NCBI GenBank assembly: GCA_021802555.1 | Contig: JAJZRU010000001.1 | Coordinates: 1-64,000 of the forward strand | Length of the DNA: 64,000 nucleotides | Reading direction: 5' to 3' | Source: Pseudomonadota bacterium | GTDB taxonomy: Bacteria > Pseudomonadota > Gammaproteobacteria > Burkholderiales > Thiobacillaceae | Shown: positions 35,920-48,647 of the stretch, one piece after another | Layout: each line of letters opens with the position of its first letter | Numbering within the stretch: the first letter of the stretch is position 1 | Made by a program: the position numbers and the translations under genes | Notes under the pieces: model-generated | Told to the model about the DNA's origin: nothing | Database searches by the model: none | What the model saw: the letters and a program-made list of their open reading frames with translations, nothing else

Positions 35920-37401
35920 GTGGCGCGGGTGCCGGGGCGGCGGCTGCCTGAAATCGTCCGTGCGGCCCTGGCCGCGGCGGCGGGCACCCTGGCGGTGGGA
36001 GGCTACGCGCCTTTCTATTGGTATCCCCTGAGCCTGTTTGGGCTCGCTGCCCTGTTCGCCTTGTGGCGCGGCGTTGCGCCCGGGTGTGCGGCCCTGCTCG
36101 GCTTCGCCTGGGGCCTGGGATTTTTCGGCTTCGGCGTGAGTTGGGTGTACGTGAGCCTGACCGAGTTCGGCGGCATGCCGGTGTGGATGGGCGCCGTCGG
36201 CGTCACGCTGTTCTGCGCGCTGCTGGCAGCTTACCCGGCGCTGGTGGGCTGGTTCTACGCCCGCTTTTGCGCGCGCGCGCCGGCGTGGCTCGCGTTGCCG
36301 GCCTTGTGGGCGCTGGCGGAGTGGCTGCGCGGCTGGCTGTTTACCGGCTTTCCCTGGCTGCAGTCGGGTTACTCGCAAATCCCGGACAGCCCGCTGGCGG
36401 CCTACGCGCCCGTGCTGGGTGTGCTGGGCGTGGGTCTGGCGGCGTCTTTGAGCGCGGCCTGGCTGGTGGCGCTGGCGGCCGGGCCGCACCGGCTGCGCGC
36501 CGCGCTCGGTTTGGGGCTCGTCTGGGTGCTCGCCGCCGCGCTTGGCCAGGTGCAATGGACGCATCCCGTGGGCGCGCCGGTGCGCGTGGCCTTGCTGCAA
36601 GGGGACGTGGCGCAGACCATGAAGTGGCAGCCGGGGCAGGTGCGCGCCAGCCTGGAGCGCTATCTGGATCTCGCCCGGAGCAGCTCGGCGCCGCTCGTCA
36701 TCCTGCCGGAAACCGCCCTGCCCGTGTTCTGGCGCGACCTTCCCGACGAGTACCGGGAGGCTTACGCCGCACTGGCCAGGGCACGCGGCGGCGAGGTCGT
36801 CGCCGGCGTGGTGACGGGGACGCCCGGCGGCGCCTATTACAACAGTGTGGTGAGCCTGGGCGCGGGCCCCGTGCAGGTGTACAGCAAGCATCACCTGGTG
36901 CCTTTCGGCGAATACATTCCGCCGGGCTTCGCCTGGATCGTGCGCTGGCTGCACATCCCCCTGTCCGATTTCACGCCAGGCCCGGCGCGCCAGGCGCCCA
37001 TTGCCGCGGCGGGGCAGAAGCTGGCCATGAACATCTGCTACGAAGATGCCTTCGGCCGCGAAGTGGTGCGCCAGCTGCCGGCCGCCACCGCGCTGGTGAA
37101 CGTCAGCAACGATGCCTGGTTCGGCCATTCCCTGGCCCCCTGGCAGCATGCCCAGATGTCCCAGGCGCGGGCCCTGGAAACCGGGCGCATGGCCTTGCGC
37201 GCCACCAATACCGGCGTGACCGCCGTGATCGGGCGCCATGGCGAAATCCTCGCGCATCTGCCGGAATTCACCCAGGGCGTGCTGGAGGCGCAGCTGCAAG
37301 GGTATGGTGGAGCGACCCCCTACGTGCGCTGGGGCGACGGCGCGGCGCTCGCGCTTGCCGTGCTCATGCTGGGGCTCGCCTGCCTCAGGCGGCGGCCTTG
37401 A
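35920..37401 (+). CDS. lnt: Apolipoprotein N-acyltransferase
   Basis: A 493-residue protein started by GTG at 35920, 3 bp after nadA. Six or so N-terminal spans lead to a periplasmic carbon-nitrogen-hydrolase domain. The catalytic triad is visible as Glu in ILPETALPVFW, Lys in YSKHHLVPFGEYIPPG and Cys in MNICYEDAFGREV, with a final span near the C terminus. Lnt adds the third acyl chain to lipoproteins such as the SlyB-like one here. The last 17 bp overlap the convergent GGDEF gene. Confidence 0.97.
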   Translation: MARVPGRRLPEIVRAALAAAAGTLAVGGYAPFYWYPLSLFGLAALFALWRGVAPGCAALLGFAWGLGFFGFGVSWVYVSLTEFGGMPVWMGAVGVTLFCALLAAYPALVGWFYARFCARAPAWLALPALWALAEWLRGWLFTGFPWLQSGYSQIPDSPLAAYAPVLGVLGVGLAASLSAAWLVALAAGPHRLRAALGLGLVWVLAAALGQVQWTHPVGAPVRVALLQGDVAQTMKWQPGQVRASLERYLDLARSSSAPLVILPETALPVFWRDLPDEYREAYAALARARGGEVVAGVVTGTPGGAYYNSVVSLGAGPVQVYSKHHLVPFGEYIPPGFAWIVRWLHIPLSDFTPGPARQAPIAAAGQKLAMNICYEDAFGREVVRQLPAATALVNVSNDAWFGHSLAPWQHAQMSQARALETGRMALRATNTGVTAVIGRHGEILAHLPEFTQGVLEAQLQGYGGATPYVRWGDGAALALAVLMLGLACLRRRP

Positions 37402-38848
37402 TGCGGGTGGTGTTGCGCCCCGAACGCTTGGCTTCCAGGAGGGCGGCATCGGCGCGGATCAGCGCGGCGTTCTCCTGACGGTCGGCCTTGTGGTATTCGG
37501 ACAGGCCGCCGCTCCACGACAGCTTGTGGGTCACACCCGGCAGCAATTCCACGGTGGCGGGCATGGCGGCGCGCAGGCGGTCGGCCAGTTCCTGAGCCTT
37601 GTCCAGCGGCGTGAAAGGAAACACCACGCAGAATTCGTCGCCCCCCAGGCGGGCGATGAAATCGCTGGAACGCAGGTTGTCGCGCAAGGCCCGGGCGAAC
37701 GCCACGATCATCTGGTCGCCGGCTTCATGGCCGAAGGTGTCGTTGATCTGTTTGAAATTGTCGATGTCCATGATGAGCAGGCTGTGGCTCCAGCCCTCGT
37801 TCAGGGTCTTGATCAATTCCTTCTGCTTTTCCTCGAAGCTGCGCCGGTTGTAGACCTGGGAGAGGTGATCCACGCGCGCCTGGGCGTTGACCTCCTGCTG
37901 CTTGCCCACCAGCACCTGGGCCAGCTTGATCATGGCGCGCAGGGGAGCGTCGAATTCTTCCAGGCTGGCGCGATAATCGGGGCGCAGGCGATGCTGGCGC
38001 AGATCTGCGGTGAGCGCCACCATGACCTTGAGGTTTTCGCGCATGCGGCGCTTGAGACTCAGCATGATGGCGACCACCGTGACCGCCATGGTGAGTGCGA
38101 TGACCAGCCAGGCCAGGATGTAAGGCGCCGTCTCGCTGAAGCTCGAGGCCGCGCGCCGCCAGACGGCGATCTTCCAAGGCGTGCCGGCCAGGGTGAGGAG
38201 GGTCTCGGGCGGGCCTTCCTTGAGGGCCTGGTTGCCGCGCCGCATGAGCACGCTGGCGCCGCCGGGCTGGCTTTGCTGCAGTTCCACATAGCCGCCCTGG
38301 TCCGGCACCGGCAGGGTATCGAACAGGGTCAGCAATTGCGGCACGGCTTCTTCGACGACCACGAAGCCCAGGCGCTGGCCCTGGCCGTCCACCACCGGCC
38401 GGCTGACCGACAGACTGAAGCTGGCGCTGGTGGAAGTCATGCCGGCACGGGCGCTCTGATCGACCAGTTGGCGCGTGTCGCCGGACAGGAATCCCGGCAG
38501 CAACTGGCGCGCCCCCTGGGGGCCATTGGTGACGAACAGCACCGTGGCCTGCGGGCTCAGGGCGTGCAGGTTGGCTGCCTGAGCGCTGCAGATGTCAGCA
38601 TTGGCCGTCTGGAAGCAGGCCAGGGTCTGGGGATGGGCGGCGATGTGATCCGCCAGGCGCCCCATGGATTGAGCCAGAAATTCGATCTGGCTGGCCATCA
38701 CCGGCCGTCCGGCCGCTTCCCGCTCCAGCCCCGTGGGGCGCGGCGCCAGGGCGTAAAAGCCCGCCACGGCGGCGGCCGCGATGGCGGCCAGCAGCAGGAC
38801 GAGCAGCGCGCTGTAGCGTTGCAGGGAAAGGCGGGTGTTCAGGCTCAC
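37385..38848 (-). CDS. Membrane-bound diguanylate cyclase (GGDEF)
   Basis: A 487-residue protein. N-terminal span (about 12-32), a periplasmic sensor region of about 210 residues that looks like a CACHE-type domain, and a second span (about 240-262). A coiled linker and a GGDEF domain follow, with FIARLGGDEFCVVFPF intact and DIDNFKQINDTFGHEAGDQ. The inhibitory I-site RSSD lies five residues before GGDEF, so product feedback is probably kept. There is no EAL domain. It makes c-di-GMP in response to an unknown periplasmic signal. Confidence 0.92.
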   Translation of the reverse strand: MSLNTRLSLQRYSALLVLLLAAIAAAAVAGFYALAPRPTGLEREAAGRPVMASQIEFLAQSMGRLADHIAAHPQTLACFQTANADICSAQAANLHALSPQATVLFVTNGPQGARQLLPGFLSGDTRQLVDQSARAGMTSTSASFSLSVSRPVVDGQGQRLGFVVVEEAVPQLLTLFDTLPVPDQGGYVELQQSQPGGASVLMRRGNQALKEGPPETLLTLAGTPWKIAVWRRAASSFSETAPYILAWLVIALTMAVTVVAIMLSLKRRMRENLKVMVALTADLRQHRLRPDYRASLEEFDAPLRAMIKLAQVLVGKQQEVNAQARVDHLSQVYNRRSFEEKQKELIKTLNEGWSHSLLIMDIDNFKQINDTFGHEAGDQMIVAFARALRDNLRSSDFIARLGGDEFCVVFPFTPLDKAQELADRLRAAMPATVELLPGVTHKLSWSGGLSEYHKADRQENAALIRADAALLEAKRSGRNTTRIKAAA

Positions 38849-38995
38849 GGCGGTGCGTCTTGGGCGTTATCGCTTGCGGAAAAGGCAATGTCGCTCATTC
38901 CCCCTGCAAACTCTGTGCCGCGTTGGCCGGCCTGGTACGAACGGCGCATCAGGGCGAACGAGTGGATCACCCATCGCCGCCCCGCGCCGGATCGC

Positions 38996-39442
38996 TCACT
39001 GCCGCCCGGTGCTGCCGAATCCGCCATCGCCGCGCGCGCTGGCGGCGAAATCCTGCACCACCTCGAAGGCTGCCTGCACGATGGGCACGATGACGAATTG
39101 CGCCAGCCGCTCCAGAGGTTCCAGGCGGAAAGGCTGCGCGCCGCGGTTCCAGCACGACACCATGAGCGGCCCCTGGTAGTCCGAATCGATCAGGCCTACG
39201 AGGTTGCCCAGCACGATGCCGTGCTTGTGGCCCAGCCCGGAGCGCGGCAGGATCAGTCCGGCATAGCCCGGATCGGCCAGATGCACGGCCAGGCCGGTGG
39301 GGATCAAATGCGTCGCGCCGGGCGCTATCGTCAACGGCGCATCCAGGCAGGCGCGCAGATCGAGCCCCGCCGAGCCGGGGGTGGCGTAAGCGGGGAGTTG
39401 GCCGCTCAGGCGCGGGTCGAGTATCTTGACTTGCAGCTTCAT
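38996..39442 (-). CDS. dut: Deoxyuridine 5'-triphosphate nucleotidohydrolase
   Basis: A 148-residue trimeric dUTPase with all five motifs: [49 protein letters not shown] and the C-terminal GGFGSTGRQ arm. It removes dUTP and feeds dTMP synthesis. Coupled to coaBC by a 4-bp overlap, as in most Proteobacteria. Confidence 0.98.
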
Positions 39443-40632
39443 GGTTGACGGGTTTTCATCGCAGTCATCAATTCTTGGATATGTTCGACTAGGCGGCGGG
39501 CCTGGGTCGGCTTATCGGCGCGCGCCTGGGGGTGCATGCCGCGGTCATCGAAAAACACCAGTTCCGCGTCCTCGCGGCCCAGCGTGTCCTGGGCCAGGTT
39601 GCCTACCAACAGGGGTAGGTGTTTGCTGCGGCGCTTGGCCTCGGCCGCCTGCGCGAGATGGTCCGTCTCGGCTGCGAAGCCCACGCAGAAAGGCGCGTCG
39701 GGCAGCGCCGCCACTTCCGCCAGGATGTCGGGGTTGGGCACCAGCTCCAGATGCAGGGGGGCGCCGGTTTTTTTCAGCTTGACGGGCGAGACCTGCGCCG
39801 GGCGGTAGTCGGCGACGGCCGCCACGGCGATGAAGATGTCGGTTTGCGGCACTCGTGCCAGCACGGCCTCGCGCATCTGGGCGGCGCTCAGCACGGCGAC
39901 ATGCTCGGCCACCGGCGGGCTGGCCAGGCAGGTGGGTCCGGACACCAGAGTCACCGCGGCGCCGGCCTCCAGAGCCGCTTGCGCCACGGCGTAGCCCATT
40001 TTGCCGGAACTCAGGTTGGTAAGCCCTCGCACCGGGTCGAGTGCTTCGAAGGTCGGCCCCGCCGTGATCAGCACATGACGATGAGCCCAGGGCCCGGGCT
40101 GCAGCCGGGCCAGCACGGCGCGCCGCAACTCGTCTGGCTCCAGCATGCGGCCCTCGCCCCATTCGCCGCAGGCTTGCGCACCCGTACCCGGTCCCAGGAT
40201 GGCGACGCCGTCTTGTTTCAGTCGGGCGACATTGCGCTGGGTTGCCGGGTGGGCCCACATCTCCCGGTTCATGGCGGGTGCCACGGCCAAGGGGACATTG
40301 CCGCGCGCCAGGCACGATGCGGAGAGCAGGTCGTCGGCCAAGCCCTGCGCGAGCTTGGCGAGAAAGTCCGCCGATGCCGGTGCGACGAGGATGAGGTTGG
40401 CCGTCCGCGCGGCGTCGATGTGTGCCATGCCCGCGCCGGTGTCGTCGGCCCATCCGGCCAGCACGGGCCGTCCGGACAGCGCCTGGAAAGTCAGGGGGCC
40501 GACGAAGCGGGTGGCGGCTTCGGTCATGGCCACCTGCACGCGCAGGCCTTCTTTCACCAGCAGGCGGGTCAATTCCGCGGCCTTGTAGGCGGCGATGCCG
40601 CCGGTGATGCCGAGAAGGATGCTTGGGTTCAT
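39439..40632 (-). CDS. coaBC: Bifunctional phosphopantothenoylcysteine decarboxylase/synthase
   Basis: A 397-residue fusion. The CoaC half is a flavodoxin-like decarboxylase ([30 protein letters not shown], and the flap Cys in SASCLARGN). The CoaB half is the CTP-dependent synthase ([32 protein letters not shown]). Together they turn phosphopantothenate plus cysteine into 4'-phosphopantetheine for CoA. Upstream of dut in a two-gene operon, divergent from radC. Confidence 0.98.
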
Positions 40633-40735
40633 TTGTTAAGTAGCGATTAAAATATCGCGGCAGCCCGAGTGTTGCCGGCCGGAAAGCAGCGCGACGGCGG
40701 CGAAACAAATGATTCTAAAGGAGGAAAGCGCGCCC

Positions 40736-41410
40736 ATGGGCATCAAGGACTGGCCGGCCGACGCACGGCCACGGGAAAAGCTTTTGCAAAGAGGTGGGCA
40801 AGCGCTTACTGATGCCGAATTGCTGGCCATCTTTTTGCGCACCGGCTTGCCGGGGAAGAGCGCGGTCGATCTGGCGCGCGAGCTTCTGGGGGCGTTCGGC
40901 GGCCTGGCCGCCATCTGTCAGGCGGATATGGACGGGTTTTGCGCCGCCCCCGGACTGGGGCGTGCCAAATATGCGCAATTGCAGGCGGTGCTGGAAATGG
41001 CGCGGCGCGTGCTGGCCGAGGACATCCAGCGCGGCGACGCACTGACCTCCCCCGCCCAGGTGACGGATTATTTGCGCCTGCTGCTGAAGCACAAAAGCCA
41101 CGAAGTGTTCGGCGCGGTGTTCCTGGACGCGCAAAACCGCGTGATCGCCTGGGAGGAATTGTTTCGCGGCACGCTCACGCAAACCTCTGTTTATCCGCGT
41201 GAGATCGTGAAAGGGGCGCTGGGATGCAATGCCGCGGCGGTCATTTTTGCCCACAACCACCCTTCGGGCGTGGCCGAGCCCAGCCGCGCGGACGAAATGC
41301 TGACCCGGCAGTTGAAAGAGGCGCTGGCGCTGGTGGACGTGCGCGTGCTGGATCATTTCATCGTCGCCGGCAGCCGCGTGCTGTCATTCGCCGAGCGCGG
41401 ATTGCTTTAG
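40736..41410 (+). CDS. radC: RadC family JAMM-domain protein
   Basis: A 224-residue protein from the ATG at 40736, preceded by AAAGGAGG (40717-40724). An N-terminal helix-hairpin-helix region precedes the JAMM/MPN+ domain with [14 protein letters not shown] and the upstream glutamate in [11 protein letters not shown]. The metal-binding residues are intact. The historic link of RadC to DNA repair is doubtful; the biochemical role is unknown. It lies divergent to coaBC and ahead of rpmB-rpmG, the usual order. Confidence 0.95.
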
Positions 41411-41431
41411 GTTCTGGCTTCATGGTATAAA
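41403..41431 (+). promoter_or_regulatory. Sigma-70 promoter of rpmB-rpmG
   Basis: TTGCTT (41403-41408), 17-bp spacer, TATAAA (41426-41431). The -35 overlaps the end of radC; the rpmB ATG is at 41463. Confidence 0.75.
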
Positions 41432-41462
41432 GCGCGTTTTCGTTTTAGCCTTGGAACCCGCG

Positions 41463-41699
41463 ATGGCCCGCGTCTGCAAAATCACCGGCAAGAAGCCCAT
41501 GGTCGGGAACAATGTTTCCCACGCCAACAACAAGACCAAGCGCCGCTTTCTCCCCAATCTGCAAATGCGCCGCCTCTGGGTGGAAAGCGAACGGCGCTGG
41601 GTGCGCCTGCGCCTGACCAATGCGGCGCTGCGCACCATAGACAAGAAGGGGCTGGACGTGGTGCTGGCCGAGTTGCGCGCCCAAGGCGAGAAAATCTGA
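41463..41699 (+). CDS. rpmB: 50S ribosomal protein L28
   Basis: A 78-residue protein: [54 protein letters not shown]. Complete and typical. It forms an operon with rpmG, 9 bp downstream. Confidence 0.99.
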
Positions 41700-41708
41700 G
41701 GTTGAATC

Positions 41709-41876
41709 ATGGCGAGCAAAGTCCGCGAAAAAATCAAACTGGAATCCACGGCCGGCACCGGCCATTTCTATACGACCACCAAGAACAAACGCACCATGCC
41801 GGAGAAGATGGGGATCAAGAAATACGATCCCGTCGTCCGCAAGCATGTGGCCTACAAGGAAACCAAGCTCAAGTGA
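41709..41876 (+). CDS. rpmG: 50S ribosomal protein L33
   Basis: A 55-residue protein: [40 protein letters not shown] and [14 protein letters not shown]. It has no cysteines, so it is the zinc-independent C- form. Short, but unmistakable by sequence and position after rpmB. A terminator follows 32 bp downstream. Confidence 0.98.
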
Positions 41877-41908
41877 GCAGCCGCTGACTCAGGCAGGCCC
41901 CACCGAAA

Positions 41909-41932
41909 ACCCGCCGACAGGCGGGTTTTTTA
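41909..41932 (+). terminator. Rho-independent terminator after rpmG
   Basis: AACCCGCC, loop GACA, GGCGGGTTTTTT. Ends the rpmB-rpmG message. Confidence 0.92.
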
Positions 41933-41958
41933 TTGCCTACCGTCCGGGCTGCAGGCGT

Positions 41959-41986
41959 AAAAAAGCCCGCCGCACGGCGGGCTTCG
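41959..41986 (-). terminator. Rho-independent terminator after the desaturase gene
   Basis: Read on the minus strand: AAGCCCGCCGTGCGGCGGGC, then TTTTTTA. It lies 17-44 bp beyond the desaturase stop at 42003 and faces the rpmG terminator. Confidence 0.92.
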
Positions 41987-42002
41987 CAACGCGTTTTTCG
42001 CC

Positions 42003-43175
42003 TCAGGCGTAGCGGCGCAGGCGCAGGGAGAACTCGCGCAAGGCCTCGATGCCGCTGGCATCCGCCCGCTGGCACCAGTCCTGCAGTTGCTTGACCAGTT
42101 GCTCCTTGCTGGCGGTGGAACGGGACCACAGCGCAGCCAGTTCCTGGCGCATGCGGTACACCGTGTCCAGCCGGGCGTTGGCGTTGAGCACCTGATCCAG
42201 CGCGGCCTTCTCGGTGTGGGGCAACGCGGCGGGTTCCGAACGCAGCGAGCGGCGCAGGGTGCGGATATTCCAGCCCTGGGGCAGATGCACCTTGGCCTGG
42301 ATGTCGGCAAATTCGACCGCGCAGACTTTCTTCATGCTGCGGGCATAGCGCGTCATGACGTCGTAGCGGTGGGTGATGACCGCCTGCAGAGTCTGAAGGT
42401 CCACCAAGGTTTTTCCGGGCTGCCACCGGATCTTGGGTGCCAGCTTGCGCACCTGCGCCACGCGCAGGAAAGACAAGGCGCGGATGTAGGCCCAGCCGAT
42501 GTCGAACTCGAACCACTTGCTGGAGAGCTTGGCCGAAGAGCCATAGGCATGGTGGTTGTTGTGCAGCTCCTCGCCGCCGATGAGTATCCCCCAGGGGAAG
42601 ATGTTGGTCGAGGCGTCCTCGCTGGCGAAATTGCGGTAGCCCCAGTAATGCCCCAGACCGTTGATGACGCCGGCCGCCAGGAAAGGGATCCACAACATCT
42701 GTACGGCCCAGATGGTCAGGCCGATGGGCCCGAACAGCACGATGTTGAGCAGCAGCATGAGGGTCACGCCGCCGGCGGAATACTTGCTGTACAAATGGCG
42801 CTCGATCCAGTCGTCGGGCGTGCCATGGCCATACTTCTCCAGCGTCTCGGCATTTTTGGCTTCGGCGCGATAGAGTTCGGCGCCTTGCAGCAAGACTGTG
42901 CGGATGCCGCGCGTTTGCGGGCTATGCGGGTCTTCCTCCGTTTCGCATTTGGCGTGGTGTTTGCGATGGATGGATACCCAGGCCTTGGTGACCATGCCGG
43001 TCGTCATCCAAAGCCAGAAGCGGAAAAAATGGCTCACCGCGGGATGCAGGTCCACCGCGCGATGGGCCTGGGAGCGGTGCAGGAAAATGGTGACGCCGGC
43101 GATGGTGATGTGGGTCAGGACCAGAGTGACCGCCACATAGCCCCACCAGGGCAGATCGAATACAGCCAATTGCAT
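42003..43175 (-). CDS. Acyl-CoA (delta-9 type) fatty acid desaturase
   Basis: A 390-residue integral-membrane desaturase with the three histidine boxes HRSQAHR, HRKHHA and HNNHHA that bind the di-iron centre. It has four membrane spans and a C-terminal cytoplasmic helical extension of about 130 residues. The length and extension match a group common in Betaproteobacteria. It would introduce cis double bonds in membrane acyl chains aerobically. Confidence 0.92.
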   Translation of the reverse strand: MQLAVFDLPWWGYVAVTLVLTHITIAGVTIFLHRSQAHRAVDLHPAVSHFFRFWLWMTTGMVTKAWVSIHRKHHAKCETEEDPHSPQTRGIRTVLLQGAELYRAEAKNAETLEKYGHGTPDDWIERHLYSKYSAGGVTLMLLLNIVLFGPIGLTIWAVQMLWIPFLAAGVINGLGHYWGYRNFASEDASTNIFPWGILIGGEELHNNHHAYGSSAKLSSKWFEFDIGWAYIRALSFLRVAQVRKLAPKIRWQPGKTLVDLQTLQAVITHRYDVMTRYARSMKKVCAVEFADIQAKVHLPQGWNIRTLRRSLRSEPAALPHTEKAALDQVLNANARLDTVYRMRQELAALWSRSTASKEQLVKQLQDWCQRADASGIEALREFSLRLRRYA

Positions 43176-43335
43176 GATTACCCATTCAAAGATAAGGGAA
43201 AATCAATGTTAGGCCGTGCGCCGGGGGGAGTCAATCGATTCAAGCGGATTTAAGCGGGTGCGGGCGGTGGAGGGGCGATGCTATAGTCAACCCAGACCTT
43301 TTTCGGCCATGCGCGCCCCCCATCGACTGCAGGCC

Positions 43336-43700
43336 ATGTCCGTTCCCGCATTTCTTCCCCGGCCGCAGCTGCAGCGGCTTTTCGAGGCCCTGACGGGGCT
43401 GGGCTATCGCATCGTGGGGCCCTCCGTGCGCGATGGCGCCTTGATTTACGAGGAAATCACGTCGGCGTCCGAGCTGCCCTGGGGAGTGGTCGCCCGGCGG
43501 GATGCCGGCAGCTTTCGCCTGGAGGCGGGGGCCGGGGAGCGCTGCTTCGCCTGGGCCAACGGCCCGCAGGCCCTCGATCCGCTGGTGTTCGCCCCCGTCG
43601 AGCCGCTTTGGCGCATGGAGCGCAGGGGGGCGGGCTTGCGCCGCTCGCTCACCCGCGCCGGTCTGGATCGGCCGCAAGCCGAGCTTAGGCAGCGGGCGGA
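43336..43700 (+). pseudogene. 5' remnant of a hydrogenase-associated 4Fe-4S dicluster protein
   Basis: From the ATG at 43336: MSVPAFLPRPQLQRLFEALT, GLGYRIVGPSVRDGALIYEE and ITSASELPWGV. This matches the N-terminal segment of the iron-sulfur proteins encoded next to group 3 [NiFe]-hydrogenases (pattern GYRVVGP.VRDGAIVY.EI). The usual PLWR-type phrase (EPLWRMERR) follows at about residue 95. The ferredoxin-type cysteine clusters expected further on are absent. By 43710 the sequence has become the end of a hydrogenase large subunit. The exact junction lies between about 43630 and 43705. Confidence 0.7.
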
Positions 43701-43776
43701 GACGGTCTCCGCAATTACGAGCCCTGCATCTCCTGCGCCACCCATATTCCTTGATCTGCGCATCCACTGCCCATGA
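43701..43776 (+). pseudogene. 3' end of a [NiFe]-hydrogenase large subunit gene
   Basis: The frame starting at 43701 reads DGLRNYEPCISCATHIP and stops at 43754. PCISCATH is the C-terminal nickel-binding CxxC-x2-H motif of [NiFe]-hydrogenase large subunits, the site cut by the maturation protease. One extra base after the CAT codon shifts the frame; in the shifted frame the tail reads IFLDLRIHCP and stops at 43776. That stop overlaps the protease start as ATGA, as expected for the native 3' end. About 20 codons of the gene survive. Confidence 0.82.
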
Positions 43777-44228
43777 ATAATGCTTCCCCCTCTCCTGCCG
43801 TCCGCGTGCTGGGCATAGGCTCGCTCGCCGAAACCGACAACGTGGGCTTTCTCGTCGCCCATGCCCTGCAAGGCAGCTTCGATCCGGCCCTGGTCGAGAT
43901 CGCGGCCCTGGATCGCCCAGGGCCGCGCCTCATCGAGCACATGCGCGGCGCCGCCACCGTGATCCTGGTGGATGCGGTGCGCAGCGGTGCGGCGGCGGGC
44001 ATGCTGCACCGCCTGGAAGGCCGCGCGTTGAACGGCGCCCTGGTGCATCGCACGTCCACGCACGGTTTCGGCCTGGAAGAGGCTTTGCAGCTCGCCGAGC
44101 GCCTGGGCGAGCTGCCGCCGCATCTGCTGCTGATGGGCATCGAGGTGGGCGTGGCGCCTCCCGACCCGGAGCGCCTGACGGCGCTGGTGGAGGCGGTGCG
44201 CGGCGAAGTGCAGGCCGCGCTCGCCTGA
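43773..44228 (+). CDS. Hydrogenase maturation protease
   Basis: A 151-residue HycI/HupD-fold endopeptidase: VRVLGIGSLAETDNVGFLVA, IAALDRPGPRLIEHMRGAAT, VILVDAVRSGAAAGMLHRLE, STHGFGLEEALQLA and PPHLLLMGIEVG. The nickel-contacting residues (Glu in GSLAETDNVG, Asp in LVDAV, His in STHG) are present. Such proteases trim the large subunit after nickel insertion. The gene looks intact, but its presumed substrate gene has been reduced to a 3' fragment directly upstream, so it may be an orphan. Confidence 0.9.
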   Translation: MNNASPSPAVRVLGIGSLAETDNVGFLVAHALQGSFDPALVEIAALDRPGPRLIEHMRGAATVILVDAVRSGAAAGMLHRLEGRALNGALVHRTSTHGFGLEEALQLAERLGELPPHLLLMGIEVGVAPPDPERLTALVEAVRGEVQAALA

Positions 44229-44235
44229 GCCGACC

Positions 44236-45522
44236 TCAGGCGTCTCGCGCCTGCTGGAGATGGACGACGCGCTGCGGGTAAGGGATTTCGATGCCGTTTT
44301 CCTTGAACACGCGCCAGATTTCCCAGTTGAGATCGGACTTGAGATTTTGCTGGCCTTCGCTGGGGTCGCGCACCCACACCCCCAGTTCCAGATTGATGCC
44401 GCTGTCGGCGAAGGCGGTGAGGTACACGCGCGCCGGTTTGCCTTCGTCGTTCTGGATGACGCGCGGGTGGCCGAGGGCGATCTGCATAAGCAACTCGCGC
44501 ACGCGCTCCAGGTCGGCGTCGTAGGAAACCTGCACCGGCACGGCGATGCGCACGCTGGGCTGGGTGAAGGAGTGGTTCACCACCGTCTGGTTGATGAACA
44601 GTTCGTTCGGCACGATGGACTCGGTGCCATCGAGCGAGCGCAGGAGCGTGTAGCGCGTGTTGATGCCGGCCACCTGGCCGTACTTGTTGTCCACCGTGAC
44701 CAGATCGCCGATGCGGATGGAGCGGTCCAGCAGGATGATGAAGCCGGAGATGTAATTGCTCGCGATCTTCTGCAGCCCCAGGCCCACGCCCACCCCCAGG
44801 GCGCCGCCGAATACGGACAGCACGGTGAGGTCTATGCCCAGGGCGGGCAGGGCCATGAGTACGGCGACGATGAGCAGGACGGTGCGTGCGGCCTTCACCA
44901 GCGCCAAGCGCGTGGACAGATTCATCTGTTCCAGGCGCATGAGCCGGCTTTCCAGAAATTGCGCGAGCCACAGCGCGACGATGATGGCGAAGACGATGAC
45001 CAGGGCGGCCTGCAGCAAGAGCCAAAGGGAGAAGTGTCCCGTACCCACGTCGAAGGACACCGTTTCCAGGACATGGCGCGCCAGCGGCAACAGGCCGGTG
45101 ATGTGGAAGGCGATGACTATCCAGATCAGCGTCCCTCCCAGGCGTTCCCAGGATTTGAGCGCCGCGCTGGGCTTGAAGACGTAGCGCAGGGCCAGCGTCA
45201 GCAGCCGGATGAGGATCCAGGCCCATAGCAGCGGAAACACCACATCGAGCAGATGCACCTCGCCGATGGCGAGCTTGACCCCGGCGCGCGCGATTGCCGT
45301 GAGACCCAGCACCGCCAGCGGGAAACCCAGGCGCAGCAAGGGCTCGCGCGCCGATGCGTAGGAGCTGCCGGGACGCTCCAGAAAGCGGCGCAGCGCGTGC
45401 ATGGCCACCCACCCCAGCAGCAGGCAGGCGATGAGGGCGGCACCCTGCCAAAGCAGGGCCGCGTTGTGGGAATGTTCGAGCAGCCGCGTGAGCAGGCTGT
45501 CGAAAGGTGCCGCTTTCGCCAC
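44236..45522 (-). CDS. MscS-type mechanosensitive ion channel
   Basis: A 428-residue protein started by GTG at 45522. Five to six spans occur, the last pore-lining helix followed by LSVFGGALGVGVGLGLQKIA and NYISGFIILLDRSIRIGDLV, the MscS signature. The beta-domain (VPNELFINQTVVNHS) and a C-terminal alpha/beta domain (DLERVRELLMQIA) follow. The extra N-terminal spans place it among MscK/YbiO-like members of mid size. It protects against hypo-osmotic shock. Confidence 0.93.
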   Translation of the reverse strand: MAKAAPFDSLLTRLLEHSHNAALLWQGAALIACLLLGWVAMHALRRFLERPGSSYASAREPLLRLGFPLAVLGLTAIARAGVKLAIGEVHLLDVVFPLLWAWILIRLLTLALRYVFKPSAALKSWERLGGTLIWIVIAFHITGLLPLARHVLETVSFDVGTGHFSLWLLLQAALVIVFAIIVALWLAQFLESRLMRLEQMNLSTRLALVKAARTVLLIVAVLMALPALGIDLTVLSVFGGALGVGVGLGLQKIASNYISGFIILLDRSIRIGDLVTVDNKYGQVAGINTRYTLLRSLDGTESIVPNELFINQTVVNHSFTQPSVRIAVPVQVSYDADLERVRELLMQIALGHPRVIQNDEGKPARVYLTAFADSGINLELGVWVRDPSEGQQNLKSDLNWEIWRVFKENGIEIPYPQRVVHLQQARDA

Positions 45523-45592
45523 GCAATCGCCCGAGAGTGAGGAAGCGGCGGATTATAGCAACCGGCCGGTGCTGGCCGGCAGATCGCCGTGC

Positions 45593-46813
45593 CTAAAAAT
45601 TGTGCGTGTATTGCACGCTTAAAATATCCACGGCATTGCTGTAGCTGCCTGTGAGCAGCGTGCTCCCCGCCGTGTTGTTGATGGGGGTGTTTTTCACGAA
45701 CAGATGGGCGTAGCCCACATCCGCCGCGTTTGCGGGCGAGAAGCGGTATTGCAGCCCCGCCGCCGCCCAGACGCGGTCGTTGTCGGGGATGCGCGGGGTG
45801 CGATAGGCGTCGGACACCGGCGCCTGGTCGTAGGCAGTGCCGATCCGCAGCGTGAGCGCCTGGCTCCAGTGGTAATTGGCGCCCAGCGAGTAGCGCCAGG
45901 TGTCGCGCCAGTTCTCCGGGGTGCTGGATATCGGCGCGCCATTGGCATAAGTCACCGTGAGGGTTTTGAAGCTGCTCCAGCCGGTCCAGGTCACGTCGGC
46001 CAGCAGATCCCAGCGCGCGTTAAGGCGATGGAACAGGCTCAGCGAAGCGGTGTCGGGCAGGGTGATTTCGGCCTGAGCCGGACCGCTGGGCAGGAAGGCG
46101 AAGTTTTCCACGCTCAGCGTGCCCTTCAAGCGATGATGTATTTTGGAGCGGTAGGCCAGCCCCACGCGGGTCGCGGGAGTCAACTGCCACAGCAGGCCGA
46201 GGTTGTAGCCCAAGCCGGTGTCGGAGCCTTTGAGCGTGGCCAGCGAGTTTGGGGCCAACGGCAAAATGGCGTTGCTGAGCTGGGCATCTATCCACTCCAC
46301 GCTCAGGCCCGCGCCCAGGGACAGTTGATCGTTTACCTTCCATGCCAAAGCGGGGTTCAGCGCCACGGTGCGCAATTCGGACTTGATGGCCTGGTAGCGC
46401 CCCACCCAGTCGGGCGAGTAATCGGTCTTGAGGCCGAAAGGCGAACCCACGCCCACGCCCAGGCTCAGATTCTGGCTGACATGCCAGGCGTAGTAGACAT
46501 TCCCCGTCAGGTTCCAGCTTCCCGCGTCGCCGCCCTGGCTGCCCCCTACCGCCGGCGTGACGGTGCCGCTGAACTTGATGCTCGGACGGATGGCGTTGAC
46601 GCCCAATACCAGTTGGCGATCGGGCAGCAGCGTCATGCCGGCAGGATTGAAGAATATCGTGCTGGCGTCCTGGGCGGACGCGGCCTGGCCGGCATAGGCA
46701 TTGCCCAAGCCGTCGCCATTCTGCTCCGTGAGGGCGAAGCCGCTGGCGGCGGCGCTCAACGGGGCAGCGGCCAGAAGAAATAGCGGGAACAGTGTGCGGG
46801 TGATGGTTTTCAT
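45593..46813 (-). CDS. FadL/TodX-family outer-membrane transport protein
   Basis: A 406-residue protein with a signal peptide (MKTITRTLFPLFLLAAAPLS, cleavage near AAA/SG). The mature N terminus GFALTEQNGDGLGNAYAGQA and DASTIFFNPAGMTLLPD are the hatch-domain signature of FadL. The rest alternates short polar and aromatic beta strands and ends in Phe (YTHNF), as outer-membrane barrels do. It imports hydrophobic compounds, probably long-chain fatty acids. It starts 13 bp after the acyl-CoA ligase gene, with GGAGGAGATC upstream, so uptake and activation are coupled. Confidence 0.94.
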   Translation of the reverse strand: MKTITRTLFPLFLLAAAPLSAAASGFALTEQNGDGLGNAYAGQAASAQDASTIFFNPAGMTLLPDRQLVLGVNAIRPSIKFSGTVTPAVGGSQGGDAGSWNLTGNVYYAWHVSQNLSLGVGVGSPFGLKTDYSPDWVGRYQAIKSELRTVALNPALAWKVNDQLSLGAGLSVEWIDAQLSNAILPLAPNSLATLKGSDTGLGYNLGLLWQLTPATRVGLAYRSKIHHRLKGTLSVENFAFLPSGPAQAEITLPDTASLSLFHRLNARWDLLADVTWTGWSSFKTLTVTYANGAPISSTPENWRDTWRYSLGANYHWSQALTLRIGTAYDQAPVSDAYRTPRIPDNDRVWAAAGLQYRFSPANAADVGYAHLFVKNTPINNTAGSTLLTGSYSNAVDILSVQYTHNF

Positions 46814-46826
46814 GATCTCCTCCTGG

Positions 46827-48647
46827 TTATTGATCGGGCGCGAGGGAAAAATTGGCGTAGAGCGCCTCGATTTCTGCACGGTAACGCGCCAGCAAGGGGG
46901 CGCGCCGGATTTTCATCGTGGGGGTGAGCAAGCCGTTCTCCACCGTCCAGGGTAGGAGCGAGGCGTGAAGGCGGCGCACCTGGGCATAGCCGGGGAAATG
47001 CGCGAGGCGCTGACCGAGGTGCCGGAGCAGGGCTTTCCTGACGCGCGGCTCGTCCGGTGCGCCGGGGTTGGCCGGGTCAAGCCCGAGGCCGCGGGCGAAT
47101 TCCTCCCAGTGTTCGGCGTTGAGTACCACGACCGCGGCGAGAAAAGGGCGTCCTTCCCCGATCACCATGGCCTGCTCGAACAGAGGATCCAGGCAGATGG
47201 CCGACTCCATGTCGGCAGGGGCGATCTTCTCGCCGTTGTTGAGCACGATGATGTCCTTGATGCGCCCGACGATGTAGTAATGGCCCTTGCCGTCGACGCG
47301 CGCCTGATCCCCGGTGTGCAGCCAGCCGTCGGCGTCGATGGCCGCGGCCGTGGCCTGGGGGTCGTTCCAGTAGCCGCGCATGATGCAGCGGCTGCGGGTC
47401 AAAAGCTCATCCTGCGCGCCGATTTTCACTTCCACGCCGGGGATGGGTTTGCCTATGCTGGCCGGGAGGTTGGACTCCGGGCGGTTGACGCTGACGACCG
47501 GGCCCGCCTCGGTGAGTCCGTAGCCCTGGTGCACCGGTACGCCCAGGGCGAGGAACAATCGGGCGATGTCCGGATTCAGGGCGGCGCCGCCGCTGATGGC
47601 GAAGCGCAGGCGGCCGCCTAGTTTGGCCCGGATGGGCGCGGCGACCTTGCGCCTCAGCAAGGGCCAGGCGAGCAGCCTGGGCTGCCAGCGCGCGCGGCCC
47701 TGGGCTACTTCGAAAGCGAGCCAGCCGAGGTCGATTGCCAGCGCGAAGATTTTGCGCTCGAGCGCGGATTTTTTCGCCAGTTCGTCCTGGAGGCGCGCAT
47801 ACACCCGCTCGTAGATGCGCGGCACCGAGACCAGCACGGTCGGTTGCTGTTCCTGCATATCCTGGCCGAGTTGCGCGATGGAGCGCGCGAACACCACTTC
47901 GGCGCCCAGCAGCATGGGCATGTAGTAGCCGCCGGTGCGTTCGAAGGTGTGCGAGAGGGGGAGAAAGGACAGGAAGCGTTCGTCATCGCGGAAAGACGCG
48001 CACTGGCTGGCATACCAGGCATTCCACAATATGTTGTCGTGGCTCAGCATGACTCCCTTGGGGCGGCCCGTCGTGCCCGAGGTATAGACGATGCTGGCGA
48101 GCATGTCGCCGGATATATGCCGCGGCGTGGGTTCGATGCCTTCCCCGCGCGCGAGCCACTGGGCCACGGAAACGATGCGCGTGCTCCAATGCGTCAATTC
48201 GCTGGAGTCCTCCAGGCTCACCACTTGCTGCAAGCCCGGCGTGGTGGCGAGGATTTCGCCGATCTTGCGGTTCTGGAAGCGCCCTTCCACCAGCAGCAGG
48301 CGCGCGCCGCAATGCGCGAGGATGTAGGCGGCGTTGTCCGTGCGGTCGTCCAGGTAAAGCGGCACCACCACGAGTCCCAGGCTCAGCGCGGCCTGGTCGA
48401 AGACGACCCATTCGACGCAATTTCTCAGCATCAGCGCCACGCGATCGCCGGCGGCGAGGCCGGCGGCGACGAAGGCGGCGCGCCAGCGCGCCACTTCGCG
48501 GCCGATGTCGGCCCAGGAATGATCGCGCCAGGATTTTTGCTCGCTGTCGTATCGGCGGTAGGCAATCTTGTCGGGGGTGCGCCTGATGCGGGCCTCAAGC
48601 AGACCGCTTAGGTTTGTCGCCTCCTCGGGAGGAATGGACGCTGCCAC
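46827..48647 (-). CDS. Long-chain fatty acid-CoA ligase (FadD15-like AMP-dependent synthetase)
   Basis: A 606-residue ANL-superfamily enzyme. The P-loop is SIVYTSGTTGRPKGVMLSHD; later motifs are YGLTEAGPVVSVN, DGWLHTGDQARVDGKGHYYI and the C-terminal VGRIKDIIVLNNGEKIAPAD. The length and motifs fit the FadD15/long-chain group. It precedes a fadL-like gene in the same transcription unit, which supports fatty-acid activation after uptake. Confidence 0.93.
   Translation of the reverse strand: MAASIPPEEATNLSGLLEARIRRTPDKIAYRRYDSEQKSWRDHSWADIGREVARWRAAFVAAGLAAGDRVALMLRNCVEWVVFDQAALSLGLVVVPLYLDDRTDNAAYILAHCGARLLLVEGRFQNRKIGEILATTPGLQQVVSLEDSSELTHWSTRIVSVAQWLARGEGIEPTPRHISGDMLASIVYTSGTTGRPKGVMLSHDNILWNAWYASQCASFRDDERFLSFLPLSHTFERTGGYYMPMLLGAEVVFARSIAQLGQDMQEQQPTVLVSVPRIYERVYARLQDELAKKSALERKIFALAIDLGWLAFEVAQGRARWQPRLLAWPLLRRKVAAPIRAKLGGRLRFAISGGAALNPDIARLFLALGVPVHQGYGLTEAGPVVSVNRPESNLPASIGKPIPGVEVKIGAQDELLTRSRCIMRGYWNDPQATAAAIDADGWLHTGDQARVDGKGHYYIVGRIKDIIVLNNGEKIAPADMESAICLDPLFEQAMVIGEGRPFLAAVVVLNAEHWEEFARGLGLDPANPGAPDEPRVRKALLRHLGQRLAHFPGYAQVRRLHASLLPWTVENGLLTPTMKIRRAPLLARYRAEIEALYANFSLAPDQ

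Follow-up and report, generated by a model that had tools for sequence, protein, structure and literature searches.

Group 3b [NiFe]-hydrogenases have been reported in four metagenome-assembled genomes of Thiobacillaceae, and group 1e enzymes in Burkholderiales, at times alongside 3b (PMC10945355). For the endopeptidases of the HybD/HycI family, Glu16, Asp62 and His93 are named as the metal-binding residues of HybD (PMC2670836). An operon resembling those of group 3b (sulfhydrogenase-type, HydBGDA) is found in a genome of the same genus as the DNA described here, hereafter called G001. On contig 197 of this genome an intact row of hydB, hydG, hydD, hydA and a protease gene lies beside the same desaturase gene as in the window (the whole stretch of 64,000 nucleotides that was analysed), and the order is as in other operons of this type, with iron-sulfur, NAD-binding, small and large subunits followed by the maturation protease. 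The four predicted subunits, all encoded in the one operon, matched the domains Fer4_22, NAD-binding/DHODB Fe-S, Oxidored_q6 and NiFeSe_Hases. A comparison with NCBIfam, which covered the three subunits other than the NAD-binding one, gave HydB (HydB/ShyB), HydD and ShyA as the best models. All three scores were below the curated equivalog cut-offs, which makes the subgroup label a best fit: by its gene content and its best NCBIfam models, the ancestral operon is best placed in group 3b. In a second genome of the genus, G002, the operon is split over two contigs, with the desaturase gene on one and the protease gene and an MscS gene on the other. From their appearance, both genomes are draft metagenome assemblies.

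In contrast to these operons, all that the window retains is codons 1-100 of hydB, the final 47 codons of hydA and the protease gene, and we regard it as almost certain that the segment 43336-44228 is a scar left by deletion in a group 3b-type [NiFe]-hydrogenase operon, in which an intact protease gene was spared. The hydB remnant (43336-43635, forward strand), corresponding to the start of a group 3b-type iron-sulfur subunit, has 88.7 % nucleotide identity with the intact G001 gene over 300 bp without gaps, and the hydA remnant (43636-43776, forward strand, stop codon included) has 86.9 % nucleotide identity with G001 hydA, with two one-base gaps. At the junction between them (43635/43636), 3,566 bp of G001-type sequence are gone, comprising the rest of hydB, the whole of hydG and hydD and most of hydA. 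The initial annotation, made from the letters alone, had described a deleted operon with a 5' fragment of a hydrogenase iron-sulfur protein, which is thus of the HydB type, and with the genes between the fragments removed; this description and the identity of the fragments held against both congeneric genomes. As the surviving gene ends and the intact copies in relatives suggest, a deletion of about 3.57 kb from the hydB-hydA operon would have taken place in the lineage of the window.

Read base by base, position 43635 is the last base derived from hydB and 43636 the first derived from hydA, and codon 100 of hydB is joined to the hydA tail without disturbing the register of either gene. The two sides have no more than two or three bases (TT or TTT) in common at the joint. 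The repeat GCGCATGGAG occurs near the junction in both hydB and hydA, and a direct-repeat deletion with this repeat as its exact site was considered and rejected: the hydB sequence in the window runs on beyond the repeat, so that the joint lies about 15 bases further on. The repeat could conceivably have had a role in aligning the ends. Because no longer repeat sits exactly at the junction, illegitimate recombination at the match of two or three bases would best account for the deletion.

The resulting fusion frame extends from an ATG at 43336 to a TGA at 43776, with 146 codons before the stop; a version of 186 codons is obtained with a start at a GTG further upstream. A protein search with the short frame gave a match of 76 % over residues 1-127, extending past the joint. 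The C-terminal nickel-ligand motif of the large subunit, RNYEPCISCATH, is encoded at 43710-43745 on the forward strand in a frame other than the fusion frame, as had been noticed earlier. One base has been lost before the motif (43707/43708, from alignment with G001 and G002) and one extra base (43746, from alignment with G001) follows the CAT codon and restores the register. The two opposite changes cancel, so that the tail is back in the hydB/hydA register and only a segment of about 13 codons, containing the nickel motif, is shifted. The initial annotation had recorded the inserted base and concluded that it shifted the tail; the extra base is present, but the tail is not left shifted, since the earlier loss compensates for it. 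With only its last 47 codons present and its nickel motif out of frame, the large subunit of the window is incomplete. Both indels lie in the 141 bp of the hydA remnant, whereas the hydB remnant and the protease gene have none. The fusion frame ends at the native TGA, which overlaps the ATG of the protease gene (ATGA, 43773-43776), and the same overlap is found in G001 and G002.

The protease gene (43773-44228, forward strand) is intact and its predicted product belongs to the HycI/HybD family of hydrogenase maturation proteases, with 40.8 bits for PF01750 (cut-off 23) and 85.3 bits for TIGR00072 (cut-off 47.45); the ATGA join to an intact protease, also pointed out earlier, is real. Its scores with the narrower models hupD, PRK10466 and PRK10264 were below cut-off. 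The protein has 88 % amino acid identity with the corresponding G001 protein, without an indel over 142 codons; the protease frame of G001 extends beyond the stop codon of the window protease. Matches to the protease were found in 31 of 61 genomes, its own included (E ≤ 0.001). Like the HybD/HycI endopeptidases, it has Asp and His at the positions of HybD Asp62 and His93, but it differs from them in having Asn where E. coli HybD has Glu16, judged by the residues named in PMC2670836. Asn was present at that position in all six operon-type proteases aligned (window, L053, L054, L056, L057 and L058), five of which come from genomes that keep the operon. A further difference from the described endopeptidases is that a substrate gene for the window protease was not found in the genome: with hydA reduced to its last 47 codons, the earlier statement that the protease is without its native substrate gene holds.

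The genome to which the window belongs (2.77 Mb in 48 contigs) is rated 99.99 % complete and 1.83 % contaminated. Family searches for PF00374, PF01750, HypA, HypC, HypD and HypF were accompanied by 14 control genomes, among which E. coli was positive in each. In a profile search, a full-length PF00374 large subunit was not found in the genome of the window, and its only protein with PF01750 is the protease at 43773-44228. HypD and HypC were not found in the family searches, HypF and HypA gave matches below cut-off only, HypE is present as a remnant with several indels, and the hypB-like gene of G001 is located in a 10,895-bp segment without a match in this genome; the Hyp maturation set is incomplete. 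The initial annotation had raised the possibility that another hydrogenase could use the protease. None was found with a full-length large subunit, and HypA, HypC, HypD and HypF were absent above cut-off; the candidate was rejected, the other PF00374 matches being two, a HupL tail (contig 14) and a NuoCD-like subunit (contig 18, L002:961-2445). The latter ends without the C-terminal nickel motif (DPCxxCxxH) and is, on that ground, probably not a hydrogenase; the complex to which it belongs looks Hyf-like. Given that neither full-length large subunits nor HypA, HypC, HypD and HypF were found, maturation of [NiFe]-hydrogenases looks impossible in this genome, and the protease is an orphan. With nothing left to cut, it would be a leftover in which decay has not yet set in.

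A second scar was found on contig 14 of the same genome (L089:10871-11740), where about 415 bp of a HupL tail, with one indel close to the end, directly adjoin the frameshifted end of hypE, which has several indels. Compared with contig 61 of G001, 10,895 bp are missing at this scar. In G001 they contain the greater part of hupL, the gene for the small subunit with those of its partners, genes for a HupH-like protein and a second HycI-family protease, and also hypC, hypA, the hypB-like gene, hypD, hypF and the beginning of hypE, and no match to the segment was found in the genome of the window (40 of 257 candidates scored). G001 therefore keeps a group 1 hydrogenase with a DsrK/HdrD-like partner together with a hyp cluster, which we take to be of the Isp type, group 1e, whereas the genome of the window keeps only the HupL tail and the frameshifted HypE end. 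From the gene-end remnants and the intact relatives, this 10.9-kb difference would likewise represent a deletion in the lineage of the window. The gene beside this scar in G001, which had no NCBIfam match and which we assume to be hupE-like, is also gone. With the losses of 3,566 and 10,895 bp, no [NiFe]-hydrogenase capacity seems to be left after the two deletions. Another difference from contig 61 of G001, of about 5.7 kb, was observed at L089:11723-11777; the genes at this place in G001 are, by reading, of signalling type.

The case is a clean and very legible example of a known process, the loss of hydrogenase by deletion, and no new system. In the open-licence literature, none of the titles listed on hydrogenase loss or orphan proteases named this scar or an orphan protease of this kind. 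The two separate deletions document the loss of hydrogen metabolism in a lineage that probably lies near the sulfur-oxidising Thiobacillaceae, and for each of them comparison with a congeneric genome that has the genes intact locates the loss to the base pair. The value of the scar lies mainly in how clearly it can be read and in the second scar, with which the hydrogenase loss is complete. It also cautions annotators against taking a lone maturation protease as evidence of a hydrogenase, and provides a natural setting in which to time how an accessory gene decays once its substrate has been lost.

The alternative that fares best, although it is improbable, is that selection has maintained the fusion frame or the protease, the former as a leader coupling translation to the protease, the latter because it has another substrate. 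That the orphan protease, specifically, was kept for a second, unknown job after the loss of both hydrogenases, with the fusion frame as a translation leader, is if anything slightly less probable. The fusion in register, the two indels that cancel and the preserved TGA/ATG overlap are in line with such selection. In a simulation, however, the fusion frame survived two random one-base indels in 26-35 % of runs, and the probability that a fusion keeps the register, one in three, enters as a further factor; no claim of selection on the fusion frame is therefore made.

Pairwise dN/dS against G001 was lowest for the desaturase (0.095), followed by the protease (0.169) and the hydB remnant (0.327). 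Changes were assigned to branches by polarisation with G002. Excluded as unpolarisable were 6 sites of the hydB remnant, 9 of the protease, 6 of the desaturase, 2 + 2 of the hydA pieces and 1 of the HupL tail. On the window branch, synonymous and nonsynonymous changes numbered 11 and 7 in the protease and 2 and 7 in the hydB remnant, against 19 and 8 and 11 and 7, respectively, on the G001 branch. The desaturase had 14 and 7 on the window branch and 19 and 7 on the other, and the HupL tail 6 and 6 on the window branch and 8 and 4 on the sister branch; the changes in the hydA pieces were too few to use. Over the whole window branch the protease was not neutral, with fewer nonsynonymous changes (7 of 18) than the 72 % expected (binomial P = 0.003). 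The hydB remnant, with 7 of its 9 changes nonsynonymous, looks neutral, and both observations favour selection on the protease. Part of this branch, however, predates the deletion, so the counts there, which do not show neutral drift, cover time with the operon intact as well. The protease did not differ significantly from the hydB remnant on the window branch (Fisher P = 0.10), nor the window branch from the G001 branch for the protease (P = 0.54), and the PF00374 matches of the genome include no candidate substrate. Such small numbers of changes cannot separate a recent loss from retained protease function.

The deletion scar with a leftover protease was also weighed against an assembly artefact, that is, an intact operon in which the contig wrongly joins hydB to hydA; this is very unlikely. 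The short GCGCATGGAG repeat in both genes near the junction would suit a false join, but the joint falls outside it, and the missing 3,566-bp segment is not found elsewhere in the assembly, where a search in which 40 of 298 first-look candidates were scored turned up nothing beyond matches of 37 and 35 bases. The lack of HypC and HypD in the assembly, of HypA and HypF above cut-off, and the second, independent scar likewise argue against it. Moreover, the contig is 257 kb in length and collinear with a relative on either side of the joint, to the left with G001 and to the right with G002. Window positions 36158-43637 align with G001 in two blocks with 92.1 and 94.1 % identity, the latter being 41416-43637; the match resumes 3.5 kb further along in G001 for 43617-44232 (84.9 % identity), and the block of G002 that matches on the right covers 43617-47285. 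The least credible alternative, suggested by the frame open over 146 codons, is a genuine small gene unrelated to decay. Against it stand the match of both halves to the ends of intact operon genes, the lack of any Pfam or NCBIfam match at E ≤ 1 and the fact that none of the other 60 genomes searched gave a match across the two halves.

The distribution of the fragments was recorded in the same set of 61 genomes, own genome included, of which 15 matched the short frame at E ≤ 0.001. In the 14 others among these, the first part lies within frames of 364-509 codons, and in three genomes (G001, G002 and G031) the tail matches a separate place. A conserved short protein corresponding to the 186-codon frame, which the initial annotation had named as evidence against a decayed operon, was not seen among the 61 genomes. 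Within the family (25 genomes, own included), PF00374 matches were found in 23 and HypD in 20. Neither was found in G019 (89 % complete) and G022 (92 % complete), and PF00374 matches without HypD occurred in the genome of the window, in G002 (80 % complete) and in G007. The last of these (99 % complete) has a full group 1 large subunit and matches to the group 3b operon; HypA, HypC and HypD were not found in it in the family searches, possibly owing to a gap at a contig end.

On the right of the scar lies an MscS-family channel gene (44236-45522, reverse strand; PF00924 and PF21082), which adjoins the end of the operon in G002 and was not seen in G001. The initial annotation had proposed to look in relatives for a group 3 operon with the same flanks, and these were found for the desaturase flank in both G001 and G002 and for the MscS flank in G002, but not in G001. 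There, the last 214 bases of contig 197 (L053:1-214), beyond the protease gene, are unlike the window, with only chance-level short matches to the window, L054, L089 and L090 (best E 0.22). The expectation of an MscS flank in G001 was given up, which leaves G002 as the only confirmation of the right flank; either G001 would truly differ just beyond the protease gene or its contig end may be unreliable. On the left, the intergenic region at 43176-43335 (forward strand), a putative promoter zone of the ancestral hydB, has nine differences from G001 within the alignment and one internal one-base indel. It is preceded by the divergent fatty acid desaturase gene (42003-43175, reverse strand; PF00487), which is common to G001 and G002, the G002 copy being truncated where its contig ends. 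In its final third (residues 264-389) the desaturase of the window also matches the ISL3 transposase domain PF01610 (E 2.5e-11). Since the C-terminal end of the G001 desaturase protein is very similar to that of the window, this match may reflect a fixed fusion or a misdrawn family.
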